36,635 nucleotides of DNA from Thermoanaerobaculia bacterium. GTDB taxonomy: Bacteria; Acidobacteriota; Thermoanaerobaculia; UBA5066; DATFVB01. A program made the translations under genes and the position numbers. The stretch is taken from assembly GCA_035717485.1 (NCBI GenBank), contig DASTIQ010000100.1, positions 1-36,635 of the forward strand, given 5' to 3'. Shown here piece by piece: positions 15,966 to 34,794 of this stretch (positions are counted from its first letter, which is position 1; the number at the start of each line of letters is the position of its first letter). The notes under the pieces were generated by a model. It was not told where the DNA came from, made no database searches, and saw only the letters and a program-made list of their open reading frames with translations.

Positions 15966-16331
15966 ATGCGGCGAGCGGCATGGATCGTCGAGCTGGTGGC
16001 GGCTTCGGCCGCAACCCTCGCGTTCGCTCAGGTCAAGCCTCCCGACGCTCCGCCGTTCAAACCGCCGGCCGACATCCAGCGCCCGAAGACACCGGACGAG
16101 CCTCCCGGAACGCCCGAAAAGACGACGGGCACCGTCCAGTCGTACGAGCCCGAAAGATCTCTCGTCCTGACGACCGCCGACGGCTCCCGCTCGTTCGATC
16201 TTGCCAAGGCACGGATCGCTGGCGACACCGACTTCGCTGTGGGCGATCAGGTCACCGTCATCAAGACGGTGGACTCCCGGGGTCAGACCACCCTGACGAT
16301 CGCCCGGGAAGCTCCTCCCCCCGCGGAGTAG
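15966..16331 (+). CDS. Secreted small protein with 'GTV...' beta domain, copy 1
   Basis: 121 residues: signal peptide (MRRAAWIVELVAASAATLAFA), a Pro/Lys-rich linker (QVKPPDAPPFKPPADIQRP), then a C-terminal domain of about 60 residues with TGTVQSYEPERSLVL, DGSRSFDL, VGDQVTVIKTVDSRGQTTLTI. The same domain occurs in the proteins at 17798-18247 and 27287-27787, so this is one of three paralogous or recurring domains in the window. No catalytic residues are visible; an OB-like or SH3-like small beta barrel is inferred. The ATG at 15966 is selected because the signal peptide begins there. Confidence 0.75.
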   Translation: MRRAAWIVELVAASAATLAFAQVKPPDAPPFKPPADIQRPKTPDEPPGTPEKTTGTVQSYEPERSLVLTTADGSRSFDLAKARIAGDTDFAVGDQVTVIKTVDSRGQTTLTIAREAPPPAE

Positions 16332-17797: not shown

Positions 17798-18247
17798 TCA
17801 GCGAACGGCGGAGATCGTGACGTTACGCCGGCCCTGCGAGTCGTGCGACTCGACCAGGCGGACCCGGTTTCCGATCGCGATGCCCGGTTCCGCGTCGACC
17901 GTCGTGTCCTTCCCGGTGAGATCCACCCGGTGGTGGTCGCTCTCTCCCGTGAGGACCTCGATCGAGCGTCCCGCCGTATACGAAACGACGGTTCCGACGT
18001 ACGTGTTGACGTCGGTCTTTCCGGACCCGGCCGCTCCCGAGGCGGTGGTCTGGGTTTCCTTCACGAGCGTCGAGCCGACCTGCGTCGATTCGGTCTTCGT
18101 GACCCGTCGGCCGCCCGGAACGGTTTCCGTGGACTGGGATTTGACTTCGAGCTTCGGCGTTGTTTCCTTGCGGCAGCCCGCCACGAGCCCGGCGGCGGCG
18201 AGGAGAAGAACGGTTCCGGAGCCGGTGAATCGGCGGTGTTCGTGCAT
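17798..18247 (-). CDS. Lipoprotein with 'GTV...' beta domain, copy 2
   Basis: 149 residues. The N-terminus is a lipoprotein signal: basic MHEHRR, hydrophobic core, then a lipobox LVAGC at about residues 23-27. The Ser/Thr/Lys-rich middle precedes the domain YVGTVVSYTAGRSIEVL ... HHRVDL ... IGNRVRLVESHDSQGRRNVTI, which aligns with the domains at 15966 and 27287. GGAGGGG lies just before the ATG at 18247. It should be attached to a membrane face in the periplasm. No function known. Confidence 0.8.
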   Translation of the reverse strand: MHEHRRFTGSGTVLLLAAAGLVAGCRKETTPKLEVKSQSTETVPGGRRVTKTESTQVGSTLVKETQTTASGAAGSGKTDVNTYVGTVVSYTAGRSIEVLTGESDHHRVDLTGKDTTVDAEPGIAIGNRVRLVESHDSQGRRNVTISAVR

Positions 18248-18312
18248 GGCCCCTCCGTTCCGTGTCGATAGCACGGGACGTGCCATCCCGCCCGGGAACG
18301 GGGATCCGCGCG

Positions 18313-26604: not shown

Positions 26605-26683
26605 CCTTTGTCTCCTCGGCCGCCGACTCTATCCGGCGGAGAAGCGTTTCTCCAAGCCCTCGAATCCCGCGGCGCCCCGGCGG

Positions 26684-26944
26684 TCAGGTTCGGCGGTCGC
26701 CGCGGTGGTGAGGATCGGATGGGGCCGGAGTCGCGGAGCCGGGACGGCGTTTCTCGACGTTGTCCTCGGCTCCGCTCCAGCCGTCGTTCTCGGGGGCGTC
26801 GGCCTGCGCGACGTCCTCCGCCGCGGCGCTTCGGTCGCCGGCGAAATCGGAATCTCCGTCCGCCTGAGGGCGGGCCGCGCGCCCGGCGGGAAACGGTTTC
26901 TCCGCGGCGGCGGATTCGCGAGACGGCTTGCCGGTCTTCGCCAT
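26684..26944 (-). CDS. Acidic disordered small protein coupled to the metallothionein
   Basis: An 86-residue ORF whose ATG overlaps the metallothionein stop by one base (TGATG), which implies translational coupling. It is rich in Ala, Asp, Glu, Pro, Gly and Arg/Lys, with no hydrophobic core and no Cys (SDFAGDRSAAAEDVAQADAPE), and ends in a Pro/His/Arg-rich segment (PAPSDPHHRGDRRT). Third-position GC is high as in real genes. It is not recognised and could be intrinsically disordered; the His pair and acidic run could bind metal. A longer frame to 27070 overlaps the metallothionein and is not used. Confidence 0.5.
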   Translation of the reverse strand: MAKTGKPSRESAAAEKPFPAGRAARPQADGDSDFAGDRSAAAEDVAQADAPENDGWSGAEDNVEKRRPGSATPAPSDPHHRGDRRT

Positions 26945-27093
26945 CACGCGCTCGCGCAGGTGGAATGGCCGCACGGACAGTGTCGGCCGTGGCGCCCCGT
27001 CGTCTGCGCGTCGGCGCACGAATCGCTGCAGAATTTCTTTCCGCCTCTCTGGACTCCCGTTTCCCGGCAATGACAGCCTTCGTGTTCACACAT
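26944..27093 (-). CDS. SmtA-type bacterial metallothionein
   Basis: A 49-residue protein with nine cysteines and six histidines. The pattern MCEHEGCHC, then GGKKFCSDSCADA, then HCPCGHSTCASA follows the SmtA/BmtA plan: C-x3-C-x-C-like N-terminal cluster, a central (G)K-x-(F/Y)CSxxCA, and a C-terminal CxCGHxxC cluster. These fold around Zn/Cd/Cu ions in thiolate clusters. A GGTGGAGGTGAAACCC leader with a strong GGAGG supports the ATG at 27093. It overlaps the next ORF by one base. It acts in the cytoplasm in metal storage and detoxification. No SmtB/ArsR repressor is adjacent. Confidence 0.88.
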   Translation of the reverse strand: MCEHEGCHCRETGVQRGGKKFCSDSCADAQTTGRHGRHCPCGHSTCASA

Positions 27094-27215
27094 GGGTTTC
27101 ACCTCCACCGAATTCGCAGCAAGATCGCTGCCGGCAGGCGGGTGGGAAGTGCCTTCTTCCTCCTTTCCGGTTGTGCGCGGAAATCATTGGAAAGGCAGCT
27201 CTTGCGGGATATCCG

Positions 27216-27231
27216 TGGCACGGAAAGTGCT
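27216..27231 (+). promoter_or_regulatory. Sigma-54-like promoter element
   Basis: TGGCACG-gaaa-GTGCT matches the sigma-54 consensus TGGCACG-N4-TTGCW at all but one position, with GG (27217-27218) and GC (27229-27230) separated by exactly 10 bases. The predicted start near 27242 leaves a 45-base leader with a GGAGGTTG ribosome-binding site before the ATG at 27287. It is the best such site noticed in the window; chance matches are possible in GC-rich DNA. A sigma-54 activator is encoded at 33175-34794. Confidence 0.55.
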
Positions 27232-27286: not shown

Positions 27287-27787
27287 ATGAAGAATCCTTT
27301 GAATACGACGCTTTTCGGCGCCGCCCTTCTCGTGGCGGCGGCCGGTTTCGCGCAGAGCTCCACGAGCCCCCAGAAGGGCGACGAAGATCGAACCCCGACT
27401 TCGTCGACGAGCTCGTCGACCACCAACAACACGGATAGCGGCTCGACCGGCAGCACGTCGGGGAGCACCTACGGCTCGACGACCGGAAGCACCAGCGGAA
27501 GCGCGACCGGCAGCACGGGAACGTCGGGAACGAGCGGAACCTACGGCACGACGGGCTCGACCTACGGGTCGTCGACGATGGCGCCGCGGACCTACGCCGG
27601 GACGGTCAAGACGATCGACGCCGGCCACACGCTCGTGATCACGATGGCCAACGGCCGGACGCAGACCTTCGACATCAGCGGCTCGCCGACGATGGACAAC
27701 TCCGTCGCGGTGGGAAGCCGCGTGCGGGTGAAGCAGACGGTCGACGCCAGCGGACACACGGTCGTGACCGTCGAACCCTATCGCTGA
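27287..27787 (+). CDS. Secreted Ser/Thr/Gly-rich protein with 'GTV...' beta domain, copy 3
   Basis: 166 residues: a signal peptide (MKNPLNTTLFGAALLVAAAGFA), then about 75 residues of low-complexity Ser/Thr/Gly (repeats of GST, SGT, TGS, YGS), then the C-terminal domain YAGTVKTIDAGHTLVI ... QTFDI ... VGSRVRVKQTVDASGHTVVTV, clearly related to the copies at 15966 and 17798. The low-complexity stretch may be a flexible or O-glycosylated spacer. A strong GGAGGTTG site and a sigma-54-like element lie upstream, and a perfect terminator lies 20 bp after the stop. Function unknown. Confidence 0.85.
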   Translation: MKNPLNTTLFGAALLVAAAGFAQSSTSPQKGDEDRTPTSSTSSSTTNNTDSGSTGSTSGSTYGSTTGSTSGSATGSTGTSGTSGTYGTTGSTYGSSTMAPRTYAGTVKTIDAGHTLVITMANGRTQTFDISGSPTMDNSVAVGSRVRVKQTVDASGHTVVTVEPYR

Positions 27788-28912: not shown

Positions 28913-30460
28913 TCAATGCAGAGGCGCGGAGATGGGCTTGCCGCGTCCCCGCCTGAACAGCAGCAGCAGCGGAATGCACAGCAGGAAGAAGACGCCGACG
29001 ATCCGGAACGCGTCCATGTAGGTCAGGAGGAACGTCTGGCGCGTCACGATCCCCTCGATCGCGCCCGCCGCCTGCCGCTTCGCCTCGGCGAGCGGCGAGC
29101 CGCGCCCGACGAGCGCGGACGTGATCGCGGCGAGCCGCTGGCGCAGGGCGAAGTCGTACACCGAGACGTGCGTCAGGAGGTTCTGGCGGTGCGTCGCGGA
29201 GCGATGCTGGATGTACGTCGCGATGAGCGCGATCCCGAACGACCCTCCGAGCTGGCGCATCATGTTCGTCAACCCCGCTCCCTGCGGAATGTCGCGCCCG
29301 CGCAGGTTCGAGAGCGCGAGCGTCGTCAGCGGCACGAAGAGGAGGCCCAGCCCGACGCCGCGGAAGATCAGCGGCCAGAAGAAATCCGAGCGCCCGGAAT
29401 CGAGCGTCGAATGCGAGAGCATCCGGGTGAAGACGAAGAAGGAGATGAAGCCGAGCGCGTTCATGATCTGCGGCGGGAATCCGCGCTGGAGCGCCTTGCC
29501 GACGACCGGCATCATGATCGCCGTCGCCATCCCCCCCGGCAGGAGGATCAGGCCGGTCTGCATCGCGGTGAAGCCGAGGAGGTTCTGGATGAAGACGGGG
29601 AAGATGAAGACCGACGAGTAGAGACCGAAGCCGAGGATGAACGTGAAGAGCGTCCCGACCGCGAGCGACCGGTCCTTGAGCACCCGGAGGTTGACGACCG
29701 GGTGCTCCGCGGTCAGCTCGCGCCAGACGAACCCCACGACGCCGATCGCCGCGACGACCGCGAGGACGGTGATGTACGGCGCCGAGAACCAGTCCTCGCG
29801 CTCACCGCGCTCCAGCACGACCTGGAGCGACCCGATGCCGAGCACGAGGAGCGCGATCCCGGCCCAGTCGACGCGTCCGAGATGGTGCTTTTCCTTCGGG
29901 TCGTGGATGAACGTGAGCGTGAGGAACGTCGCGACGATTCCGATCGGAATGTTGACGTAGAAGATCCACGGCCAGTTGTAATTGTCGGTGATCCAGCCGC
30001 CGAGCGTGGGCCCGATGGTCGGCCCCACGACGACGCCGAGTCCGAAGAGGCCGTTGGCGAGGCCGAGCTCCTCCGGCGGGAACGTCTCGACGATGATCGA
30101 CTGCGAGGTCGACAGGAGCGCGCCGCCGCCCACTCCCTGGACGAACCGGAACACGACGAGCTCCCAGATCCCCGTCGCGTGCCCGCAGAAGAAGGAGGCG
30201 ATCGTGAAGAGGACGATCGACCCGGCGAAGTAATTCCGCCGGCCGAAGAGCGACGAGAGCCATCCCGTCATCGGGATGACGATGACGTTGGCGACGACGT
30301 AGGCGGTCACGACCCAGGCGACCTCGTCGAGCGTCGCCCCGAGGTTCCCCATCATCTGCGGGAGGGCGACGTTGACGATCGACGTGTCGATCAGCTCGAT
30401 GAGCGACGCGAGGATCACCGTGATCGTGATGATCCATTTGCGGGCGCCGTGCTCCGACAT
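28913..30460 (-). CDS. emrB: EmrB/QacA-type drug:H+ antiporter (MFS, DHA2)
   Basis: 515 residues with about 14 hydrophobic helices. The start (WIITITVILASLIELIDTSIVNVALPQMMGNL) holds the DHA2 motif with the membrane Asp of LIDTSIVNVALP, and SLFGRRNYF gives the loop 2-3 motif. PFVQGVGGGALLSTSQSIIVETFPPEELGLANGL shows the antiporter motif C in pieces. With EmrA and TolC it forms a pump exporting hydrophobic toxic compounds. It begins 9 nt after emrA stops and is the last gene of the operon. A long cytoplasmic C-terminal helix may tie to TolC assembly. Confidence 0.94.
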   Translation of the reverse strand: MSEHGARKWIITITVILASLIELIDTSIVNVALPQMMGNLGATLDEVAWVVTAYVVANVIVIPMTGWLSSLFGRRNYFAGSIVLFTIASFFCGHATGIWELVVFRFVQGVGGGALLSTSQSIIVETFPPEELGLANGLFGLGVVVGPTIGPTLGGWITDNYNWPWIFYVNIPIGIVATFLTLTFIHDPKEKHHLGRVDWAGIALLVLGIGSLQVVLERGEREDWFSAPYITVLAVVAAIGVVGFVWRELTAEHPVVNLRVLKDRSLAVGTLFTFILGFGLYSSVFIFPVFIQNLLGFTAMQTGLILLPGGMATAIMMPVVGKALQRGFPPQIMNALGFISFFVFTRMLSHSTLDSGRSDFFWPLIFRGVGLGLLFVPLTTLALSNLRGRDIPQGAGLTNMMRQLGGSFGIALIATYIQHRSATHRQNLLTHVSVYDFALRQRLAAITSALVGRGSPLAEAKRQAAGAIEGIVTRQTFLLTYMDAFRIVGVFFLLCIPLLLLFRRGRGKPISAPLH

Positions 30461-30469
30461 GCGGCCGGG

Positions 30470-31474
30470 TCAGCCGAGGTCGACGATCGTCGTGACGCTC
30501 ATACCCGTGCGCAGCGGGTAGCGCGGATCGGGCGGGTCGGTCGGCACGATCTTCACGGGGATGCGCTGCACGACCTTCGTGAAGTTCCCGGTCGCGTTGT
30601 CCGGGGGGAGCAGCGAGAACTTGGCGCCGGTCGCGGCCGCGAACGAATCGACCCGGCCGTGGAAGACGTGGTTCGGGTAGGCGTCGACCTCGAAGGTGAC
30701 CGGCTGGCCGACACGCATCCGCCGGAGCTGCGTCTCCTTGTAGTTGGCGACGACCCAGACGCGGGCGTCCTGGACGATGGCCATGAGGGGCTGTCCCGAC
30801 TGGACGAGCTCTCCCACCTCGACGTTCTTCTTCGAGACGATTCCCGAAGAGGGAGCGGTGACCGTCGCGTACGCGAGCTGGAGGCGGGCGAGGTCGAGAT
30901 CGGCCTGCTTCTGCGCGACCTGCGCCTGCGCGGCCGCGACCGCCTGGGCGGCGGCGTTTCGCTGGGCGGCGGCGGTGTCGGCGGCTCCCCGCGCCTCGTC
31001 GTACTGCTGCTGCGAGATCTCCTCCTTGGCGCGAAGGGCCGCGTACCGCCCGAGATCGCTCGCCGTCCGGCTCCGCGCCGTCTCGGCGGCGGAGACGTTC
31101 GCGCGCGCGACCGCGACCTGGGCGCGGGCATTCTGGAGCGCGCCCTCGGCCGTCTGGATTCGCGCTTCGATGTCGCGGGTGTCGATCTTCAGGAGGACGT
31201 CTCCCGCGGAGACGCGCTGGTTGTCGTCGACGCGGATCTCGGTCACGTAGCCCGAGACGCGGGGGAGAACGGGATCGATGTGCCCCTCGATCTGGGCGTC
31301 GTCCGTCTTCGCGTGGTGACGGTAGAAAGCGATCGTGCGGATCCCGTAAATCGCCCCGGCGCCGACCACGAGGGCCGCGACGAGCCAGGGAACGAACCGC
31401 CGGCGTCGGCGGCGCGGGGCGGCCTCCCGCGGCGACTCCGGAGCGTGAGGCGACTTCTTGAGCGGTTCTTCCAT
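30470..31474 (-). CDS. emrA: EmrA-type HlyD/MFP membrane-fusion protein
   Basis: 334 residues. A basic N-terminus and membrane helix (about 28-47, WLVAALVVGAGAIYGIRTI) are followed by the HlyD order: beta-barrel start VLPRVSGYVTEIRVDDNQRVSAGDVLLKID in parts, a long Ala-rich coiled coil (AEGALQNARAQVAVARANVSA...), then the second lipoyl half (VTAPSSGIVSKKNVEVGELVQSGQPLMAIV) and a beta-barrel end. This is the periplasmic adaptor linking EmrB to the outer-membrane TolC. The ATG overlaps the TolC-like stop by one base (TGATG). Confidence 0.93.
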   Translation of the reverse strand: MEEPLKKSPHAPESPREAAPRRRRRRFVPWLVAALVVGAGAIYGIRTIAFYRHHAKTDDAQIEGHIDPVLPRVSGYVTEIRVDDNQRVSAGDVLLKIDTRDIEARIQTAEGALQNARAQVAVARANVSAAETARSRTASDLGRYAALRAKEEISQQQYDEARGAADTAAAQRNAAAQAVAAAQAQVAQKQADLDLARLQLAYATVTAPSSGIVSKKNVEVGELVQSGQPLMAIVQDARVWVVANYKETQLRRMRVGQPVTFEVDAYPNHVFHGRVDSFAAATGAKFSLLPPDNATGNFTKVVQRIPVKIVPTDPPDPRYPLRTGMSVTTIVDLG

Positions 31475-32784
31475 CACGGGTTCTCCTTGCCGGCGACGTC
31501 GCGGATCTCGCCCGTCGCGTGCTTCAGCTCGATCCAGGCCTGCTCCTGGTCGGCGAGCGCGGCCTCCCTCGCGTCGCGGGCCGCCGTCACGCTCGTCTGG
31601 GCGTTGTCGACCTCGATCCCGGAAGCGACGCCGTTGACGAAGCGGTCGGTCGCGAACCGGAGCTCGTCCGCGGCGAGGCGCGCGTTTTCGCCGGCGAGCG
31701 CGGAGCGGCTCACCGCGCTCCGGTACGCGAGGAGAGCGCGGCGGACCTCCTCCTGGATTCGCCGATCGAGGTCGTCCCGGCGGATCTCGAGAGAACGCTC
31801 CTGGAGCCGGGCTTCCTCGATGCGGGCGGCGATCTCTCCTCCGGAGTAGACGGGAAAGGCGAGCGATCCGCCGACGATGCGCGTCCACGAGAGGTCGCCG
31901 AGATAGTTGCCGTTGTACCCGCCCTGGAACTGCGCCGCGAGCCGGGGCCAGCGCTCTCCCCGCGCGGCGGCGAGCGACAGGCGCGCGGCCACGAGGTTCT
32001 CGTCCAGCGCCCGGAGGTCGGGACGCTGCTTCCGCGCGGCGGCGATCGCCGCTTCCGGCGTCGGGAGCTCGCCGGCCGGCGGCTCGAAACGACCGGCGAG
32101 GACGAGCGTGTCCGCGAGGTCGGCGCCGACCGCCCGGAGGAGCGCCAGACGGGCGACGTCGCGCTGCGTCTCGGCGACGAGGAGCGCCTGCCGCTGGCGC
32201 GACAGCTGAACGTCCGCCCGCGTCGTGTCGAGCCGCGTTCCGGTCCCGACTTCCTGCGCGTGCGCCGCCTGCCCGCGGAGCTTCTCGAAGAGGTCGACGT
32301 TCGCGCGGGTCTCGTCGACGAGCGATTCGGTGCGGCGGATCGTCAGATAGAGCGAAGCGACCGCGGACGCGACGTCGGCGTCGGACTGTTCCCGTTCCGA
32401 TTCGCTCACGCGGATCTGCTGGCGGGCGGCGGCGACCCGGCGGCGCGCGGCGACGTCGATGACGTTCATCGACGCGGCGATGTGCGCGTCGAACACGTTG
32501 AAGGGGGGGACGATCGGAGGAACGCCGGGGAACGTCAGGCCGAAGGTCTGCAGGTTCAGGCTCTGGTTGACGTCGGAGACCACCGCGTCGACGCGGGGGT
32601 TCAGCGCCGTCTTCGCGCGCGCGGCGGCGGCGCGCGCCTCGTCGATGCCGAGCGACGCGATCTTCGACGCGGTACTTTCCGCGAGCGCGCGGTCGATCGC
32701 GTCGGACAGCGTCAGGGTGAGCGTTTCTCCGCGCGCGGCGGCCGCGGCGAGCAGCGCCGCGACGAGGAGCGCGGCACGCTTCAC
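31474..32784 (-). CDS. TolC-like outer-membrane efflux protein
   Basis: 436 residues from a GTG at 32784, which overlaps the STAS stop (GTGA) and follows GGAGG. A signal peptide (VKRAALLVAALLAAAAARG) and two OEP repeats with long amphipathic helices (LSDAIDRALAES..., AAVSRSALAGENARLAADELRFATDRF) and beta segments (NFLNVFDAHIAASMNVIDVAARRRV; YLGDLSWTRIVGGSLAFPVYSGGE in parts) fit a TolC trimer subunit. It provides the outer-membrane exit duct for the EmrA/EmrB pump encoded next. A longer frame start at 32817 is not favoured because the overlap and ribosome-binding site point to 32784. Confidence 0.92.
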   Translation of the reverse strand: MKRAALLVAALLAAAAARGETLTLTLSDAIDRALAESTASKIASLGIDEARAAAARAKTALNPRVDAVVSDVNQSLNLQTFGLTFPGVPPIVPPFNVFDAHIAASMNVIDVAARRRVAAARQQIRVSESEREQSDADVASAVASLYLTIRRTESLVDETRANVDLFEKLRGQAAHAQEVGTGTRLDTTRADVQLSRQRQALLVAETQRDVARLALLRAVGADLADTLVLAGRFEPPAGELPTPEAAIAAARKQRPDLRALDENLVAARLSLAAARGERWPRLAAQFQGGYNGNYLGDLSWTRIVGGSLAFPVYSGGEIAARIEEARLQERSLEIRRDDLDRRIQEEVRRALLAYRSAVSRSALAGENARLAADELRFATDRFVNGVASGIEVDNAQTSVTAARDAREAALADQEQAWIELKHATGEIRDVAGKENP

Positions 32785-33083
32785 TTCGCGCTCCTCCGTT
32801 CCTCGGTGCGAAGCCATTCGGCGACGTACACGGGGGTGTGGAGGAGCTTCGCTCGCGCGCCCTCGCCGTCGAGGAAGAACCGGACGGCGCCGCGATCGAC
32901 GATCCCGACGCCTTCGAGATCCAGAACGACCTGCCGCCCGGAGCGCCGGGACTCCCGCACGATGCGCTCGAGCTCGGCGACCTGGTCGTCGGAGATGCGG
33001 CCGGAGAGAAAGAACGTGACGCGGGCGGCGGTTTCGGCGGTCTTTTCGATCTTGAGCACGCGGCTTCCGGGATCAAGACGCAT
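32781..33083 (-). CDS. STAS-domain protein heading the efflux operon
   Basis: 100 residues: a single STAS domain (RVTFFLSGRISDDQVAELERIVRES, then VVLDLEGVGIVDRGAVRFFLDGE), a fold used by anti-sigma-factor antagonists and by SulP and ABC regulators. The serine phosphorylated in SpoIIAA-type proteins (DxS) is replaced (VDRGAV), so it is not a classical phospho-switch antagonist. It overlaps the TolC-like gene by 4 nt (GTGA), so it is translated first in the STAS-TolC-EmrA-EmrB operon. A link between a STAS domain and a drug-efflux operon is unusual; a role in ligand sensing or in outer-leaflet lipid trafficking, as for MlaB, is speculative. Confidence 0.85.
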   Translation of the reverse strand: MRLDPGSRVLKIEKTAETAARVTFFLSGRISDDQVAELERIVRESRRSGRQVVLDLEGVGIVDRGAVRFFLDGEGARAKLLHTPVYVAEWLRTEERRSAK

Positions 33084-33161
33084 GCCAGCAGGGCTGACGC
33101 CTAAGTGGCGGGAAGATATTGAGATAATGAGATCACTCTCGCCGCCATCCCCGTGAATCTG

Positions 33162-33174: not shown

Positions 33175-34794
<1,620 letters not shown>

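Follow-up and report, generated by a model that had tools for sequence, protein, structure and literature searches.

A 49-residue metallothionein gene of a Thermoanaerobaculia bacterium is predicted to be transcribed from its own sigma-54-type (-24/-12) promoter, next to a second, oppositely oriented sigma-54 promoter that would drive a divergent gene for an exported protein. The downstream osmC gene would then form a separate unit, served by a sigma-70-type promoter of its own and perhaps by some read-through, and the acidic open reading frame between metallothionein gene and osmC would be a chance frame. To this reading, which is drawn from sequence comparison, we assign a probability of roughly 0.7. 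In the proposed mechanism an enhancer-binding activator, probably bound to an inverted repeat, would switch on both promoters, with stress as the presumed inducing signal, and the metallothionein would bind Zn, Cd, or Cu via eight Cys and two His ligands. The features concerned are listed in Table 1, with positions numbered within the window, i.e., the whole stretch of 36,635 nt that was analysed.

Table 1. Positions of genes, frames, and predicted control elements in the window.
Feature	Position	Strand	Remark
Metallothionein gene, 49 aa, SmtA-like	26944-27093	-	MCEHEGCHCRETGVQRGGKKFCSDSCADAQTTGRHGRHCPCGHSTCASA; homologues, dN/dS
86-codon frame overlapping the metallothionein stop	26684-26944	-	Regarded as open by chance and non-genic
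osmC, OsmC-family peroxiredoxin, 140 aa	26182-26604	-	TIGR03562 match
Predicted sigma-70-type promoter of osmC, TTGGAG-18-TAGAGT	26626-26655	-	Conserved block
Predicted sigma-54 promoter of the metallothionein gene, CGGCAGCGATCTTGCT	27118-27133	-	-24 GG, -12 GC
Inverted repeat TTTCCG-N8-CGGAAA, candidate sigma-54 activator site	27164-27183	.	Arms kept in G001
Predicted sigma-54 promoter of the divergent gene, TGGCACGGAAAGTGCT	27216-27231	+	Conserved in G001
Divergent gene, 166 aa exported protein	27287-27787	+	74% identical in G001
Sigma-54 activator, GAF + AAA with GAFTGA + Fis-type HTH	33175-34794	-	Candidate regulator

The preliminary description of this DNA had reported a very small metallothionein gene of the SmtA plan with a strong ribosome-binding site. 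Its coordinates are correct, the ribosome-binding site is given by GGTGGAGGTG upstream of the ATG, and homologues as well as the dN/dS ratio identify the gene as genuine. The product contains eight Cys and five His and has the motif order CxHxxCxC ... FCSxxCA ... CxCGHxxC, with the conserved ligands C2, H4, C7, C9, C22, C26, C39, C41, H43, and C46; all of these are invariant among 15 homologues except for H4, which occurs in most of them. The orthologue in G001, the sole other genome of the genus, is 71% identical with a dN/dS of 0.21, and the metallothionein is thus conserved under purifying selection. In other genera of the order, identities of 58% (G005) and of 54 and 45% (two copies in G007) were observed, and further homologues occur in G009, another genus of the same order, and in G029, whose family is more distant within the class. 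A profile of the homologues matched the solved structures of SmtA (1jjd; 8e-05, full length) and of a Pseudomonas metallothionein (6gv7; 1.1e-04; also 6grv). The single sequence reaches 20.1 bits against PF02069, which is under the curated cut-off of 33, and 9 of the 15 homologues match the model (E up to 0.01). Judged by its sequence, the protein is a distant relative of PF02069 and not a core member; due to the score below the cut-off, we place it on a divergent branch whose N-terminal CxCxxCxC motif has His instead of its second Cys.

The same genome gave a further metallothionein-like match (C240), which covers a partial CxxC stretch and is no metallothionein, and a scan of genome contigs returned a single weak match, probably due to chance. 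A frameshifted C-terminal tail of the Pseudomonas kind was rejected because the position of the metallothionein stop is kept in G001 and the downstream sequence is not. A structured RNA was discarded as well, given that no Rfam match was obtained anywhere in the window. In case of the G009 metallothionein (contig C171, L017), the DNA just downstream contains a frame in which Met/His repeats of the MAGMDHSKMKQGG type occur in tandem and which perhaps encodes a copper-binding repeat protein.

SmtA of Synechococcus elongatus (1jjd, PF02069) has the same size and the same order of CxC/HxxCxC - [YF]CSxxCAD - CGHxxC, whereas the protein described here carries His at the second N-terminal Cys (CxHxxCxC), has an extra Cys two positions before CGH, and lacks the NC ending. 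Control would differ as well, since SmtA is governed by the divergent repressor SmtB, the arrangement known in cyanobacteria (PMC7387436), while a sigma-54 site is predicted here. The Pseudomonas PflQ2 MT (6grv/6gv6/6gv7) shares the Cys plan and the abundance of His. No metal-responsive repressor adjoins its gene, its promoter was studied as a sigma-70 type with the highest activity in stationary phase, and its disordered C-terminal tail is in frame (PMC7387436), whereas the protein described here lacks a tail and disorder is confined to an ORF of its own, which is not conserved. The KCAHPxCxC metallothioneins of another Acidobacteriota class have the CxHxxCxC and CxC.HxxC ligands in common with the one described here and differ from it in their sigma-70-type TTG-17-TAGAGT promoter, as opposed to a sigma-54 site. 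These short proteins (L121-L167; KCAHPxCxC...GKYCSxHCK...RCxCxHPxCR) were detected in 48 of 193 genomes of that class, i.e., in about a quarter, and some of them are preceded by CTTG-17-TAGAGT promoters. MymT of Mycobacterium tuberculosis likewise has an N-terminal part with CxHxxCxC, but its remaining sequence and its copper-specific regulation are different. The metallothionein is ordinary as a protein and probably new in its control.

The putative promoter of the metallothionein gene has GG and GC at the -24/-12 spacing with 10 bases in between and is identical in G001; the predicted transcript start lies about 15 nt before the ATG, just upstream of GGAGG. The same GG-N10-GC spacing precedes the metallothionein genes of G007 (CGGCAGCGGAATTGCT), G005 (CGGCATTCTTGTTGCT), G009 (TGGCATGGTCCGTGCT), and G029 (TGGCGCGGGCGCTGCA), and by eye the exact spacing was found in six genomes. 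Scored with an approximate sigma-54 matrix built from the consensus, 8 of 10 copies of the class have a site of 8 bits or more at 10-60 nt from the start, compared to about 2% of random windows; these are mostly copies in which the pattern had first been noticed (6 of the 10 scored). Three copies of the class that were examined afterwards gave 8.9, 7.7, and 10.5 bits, and in the 8.9-bit site GC at -12 is replaced by GA. The copy on contig C199 of G007 is devoid of a sigma-54 site. The promoter-like sites are conserved, the genome encodes rpoN, and we infer from the sequence that the metallothionein gene uses sigma-54.

The product of the divergent gene is rich in Ser, Thr, and Gly and has a conserved C-terminal domain; it gave no match in Pfam. 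Its near-consensus site is located 55 nt before the ATG, and TGGCACGAAAAGTGCT occupies the orthologous place in G001. Between the two predicted promoters, G001, the one relative in which the inverted repeat is conserved, carries it as TTTCCGGGTAGAAACGGAAT at the same place, with the arms kept (1 mismatch) and the spacer changed. We regard this repeat as a candidate site at which one sigma-54 activator could bind to serve both divergent promoters. It does not represent a regulon-wide motif, as the TTTCCG inverted repeat is absent from the other sigma-54 sites and its sole other exact genome copy is located inside a folP-like coding sequence. About 15 sigma-54 activators are encoded in the genome, one of them within the window, and therefore the latter is a candidate regulator only. 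Downstream of this GAF-type activator gene are TolC, HlyD-like, and MFS efflux genes (28913-32817, minus strand), and a site with GA at -12 (TGGCATGCGTCTTGAT, 33072-33087) lies near the activator and efflux genes. The divergent gene itself has two exported paralogues in the window, 15966-16331 on the plus and 17798-18247 on the minus strand. All three share a C-terminal domain of ~65 residues, which has no Pfam match, at 29-36% identity (E 5e-6 to 2e-8). Near-consensus sigma-54 sites are situated upstream of 17798 (18270-18285) and of the divergent gene, and such a site also precedes another similar gene that lies outside the window (L047).

Throughout the genome, the strict sigma-54 pattern yielded 23 matches compared to 35 for the reversed control and is thus not over-represented; a looser pattern is, with 41 compared to 26. 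Three of the 23 genome matches of TGGCAC-N6-TGCW fall into the window, which accounts for about 1% of the genome (3244-3259, 18270-18285, and 27216-27231), and this suggests a local cluster of sigma-54 targets. Sites of the sigma-54 type were also observed 15-80 nt upstream of putative stress genes which we take to be of the CsbD, GlsB/YeaQ-like, GSP17M-like, BON, DUF5335-like, and pyridoxamine-oxidase-like kinds, names assigned by recognition from the sequence. The gene-site pairs of GSP17M-like and BON are present in both genomes of the genus. In a held-out test set beforehand, 3 of 47 metallothioneins of another class had a site (6%) compared to a background of 2.8%. This result rules out sigma-54 control of metallothioneins as a phylum-wide rule, and consequently we confine the sigma-54 claim to the class of the window.

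OsmC matches TIGR03562 with 6.4e-58 and 194.7 bits, above the curated cut-off of 85.8, and the dN/dS of osmC in comparison to G001 is 0.09, a clear sign of purifying selection. As described previously, the gene is located 79 nt beyond the end of the 86-codon frame on the same strand. Within the gap, a single block is clearly conserved in G001, namely GGATAGAGT; it lies about 25 nt upstream of osmC, and a TTG-type sequence is found another 17-18 nt upstream. At that distance, TAGAGT precedes 10 of 45 metallothioneins of the other Acidobacteriota class mentioned above, compared to 0.26% of random stretches, and there it often occurs about 17 nt after CTTG. Due to this enrichment and spacing, TAGAGT looks like the -10 element of a housekeeping promoter. 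By its sequence, osmC appears to have its own sigma-70-type promoter and to be a separate unit, which makes a coupled unit of three genes unlikely.

The overlap noted in the preliminary description is real, in that the metallothionein TGA (26946-26944) and the start codon of the 86-codon frame have one A in common. The product had been called acidic, which applies to a 37-residue middle stretch (12 D/E vs 1 K/R); overall it is only mildly so (16 D/E vs 13 K/R, net -3, pI 5.3). The plus strand over the same DNA is open for 677 codons, 54% of the ATG-started wrong frames within known genes of the window run for 86 codons without a stop, as do 27% of shuffled gaps, so the length of the frame means little. 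GC content by codon position is 0.76/0.64/0.79 compared to about 0.65/0.45/0.9 in real genes (for example, 0.61/0.43/0.95), the codon statistics being computed from window genes only. Neither a Shine-Dalgarno sequence of its own nor a Pfam or NCBIfam match was found for the frame. Among 60 related genomes no homologue was detected, and the weak low-complexity matches obtained are in no case syntenic. In G001, on which the same-genus comparison rests as a single genome, the gap between metallothionein gene and osmC measures 226 nt instead of 339 nt, TGATG is replaced by TGATC, and the alignable part carries a frame-breaking indel of 4 nt. Except for the osmC-proximal 60-70 nt, the gap aligns no better than shuffles (24 of 300 as good). 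A different, basic frame of 51 codons extends there from shortly after the metallothionein stop to the aligned TGA; shifted by the 4-nt indel, it was not detected as a homologue of the acidic frame.

The acidic frame is not conserved. On the grounds of the G001 gap, the 60 relatives, and the shuffles, a real partner gene, which had been put forward as the novel part of the locus, is not supported; this non-conservation is the very observation that had been named beforehand as speaking against it. At 69% GC, an overlapping start together with an open frame of 86 codons is no evidence of a gene, and most likely the frame has opened by chance in GC-rich spacer DNA.

The preliminary description had further combined metallothionein, acidic protein, and OsmC into one translationally coupled metal/redox stress operon, in which the acidic protein might bind metal or stabilise the metallothionein. 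The TGATG overlap on a common strand, the adjacency of metallothionein gene and osmC, which is kept in G001, and the fact that no terminator was found between both genes agree with such an operon. However, the promoter-like block of osmC and the non-conserved frame argue against it, and osmC is found on a different contig from the metallothionein gene in G005 and G007, which represent two further genera of the order. We consider this operon highly improbable. Somewhat less remote, yet still improbable, is a young orphan gene, specific to this lineage and coupled to the metallothionein gene. Its start overlaps the metallothionein stop, and non-conservation towards the one comparison genome of the genus is compatible with a new gene, but the missing Shine-Dalgarno sequence, the weak codon-position bias, and an open length expected by chance point the other way. 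Better founded than either, and nonetheless doubtful, is that the sigma-54 transcript of the metallothionein gene reads into osmC and adds a stress-induced to a constitutive supply, which is compatible with the sigma-54 reading preferred here. The lack of a detectable terminator and the adjacency within the genus are consistent with read-through, whereas the adjacency is not conserved outside the genus and the spacing differs by 113 nt between the two species.

With respect to control, the metallothionein gene might instead be subject to a metal-responsive repressor of the SmtB/ArsR, CsoR, or CadR type, so that the -24/-12 match would be coincidental and the inverted repeat an operator. The cyanobacterial SmtB arrangement (PMC7387436) offers a precedent, a dimeric repressor could well bind an inverted repeat, and the strict sigma-54 pattern shows no genome-wide excess. 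Nevertheless, no regulator of these types was recognised beside the metallothionein gene, the exact sigma-54 spacing recurs before metallothionein genes of several genera with otherwise unalike flanks, and sigma-54 sites are present on both sides of the divergent region. We therefore regard a metal-responsive repressor as unlikely and prefer sigma-54 promoters for both divergent genes.

Whether the metallothionein of this Acidobacteriota class is a member of a sigma-54-driven general stress regulon appears evenly balanced. If so, its partners would be CsbD, GlsB/YeaQ-like, GSP17M-like, BON, and pyridoxamine-oxidase-like proteins, and consequently metal buffering would be switched by stress via an enhancer-binding activator and not by a metal-sensing repressor. 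Searches of the literature on sigma-54 in connection with metallothionein or CsbD returned no title or abstract in which a bacterial metallothionein is described as being under sigma-54 control. Functional studies of bacterial metallothioneins are few, two before the PflQ2 study by its own count (PMC7387436). For metallothioneins without SmtB-like repressors, a sigma-54 promoter would supply a concrete and testable switch, and metal buffering would thereby be linked to a stress regulon, in a phylum in which the targets of sigma-54 seem to have received little attention.
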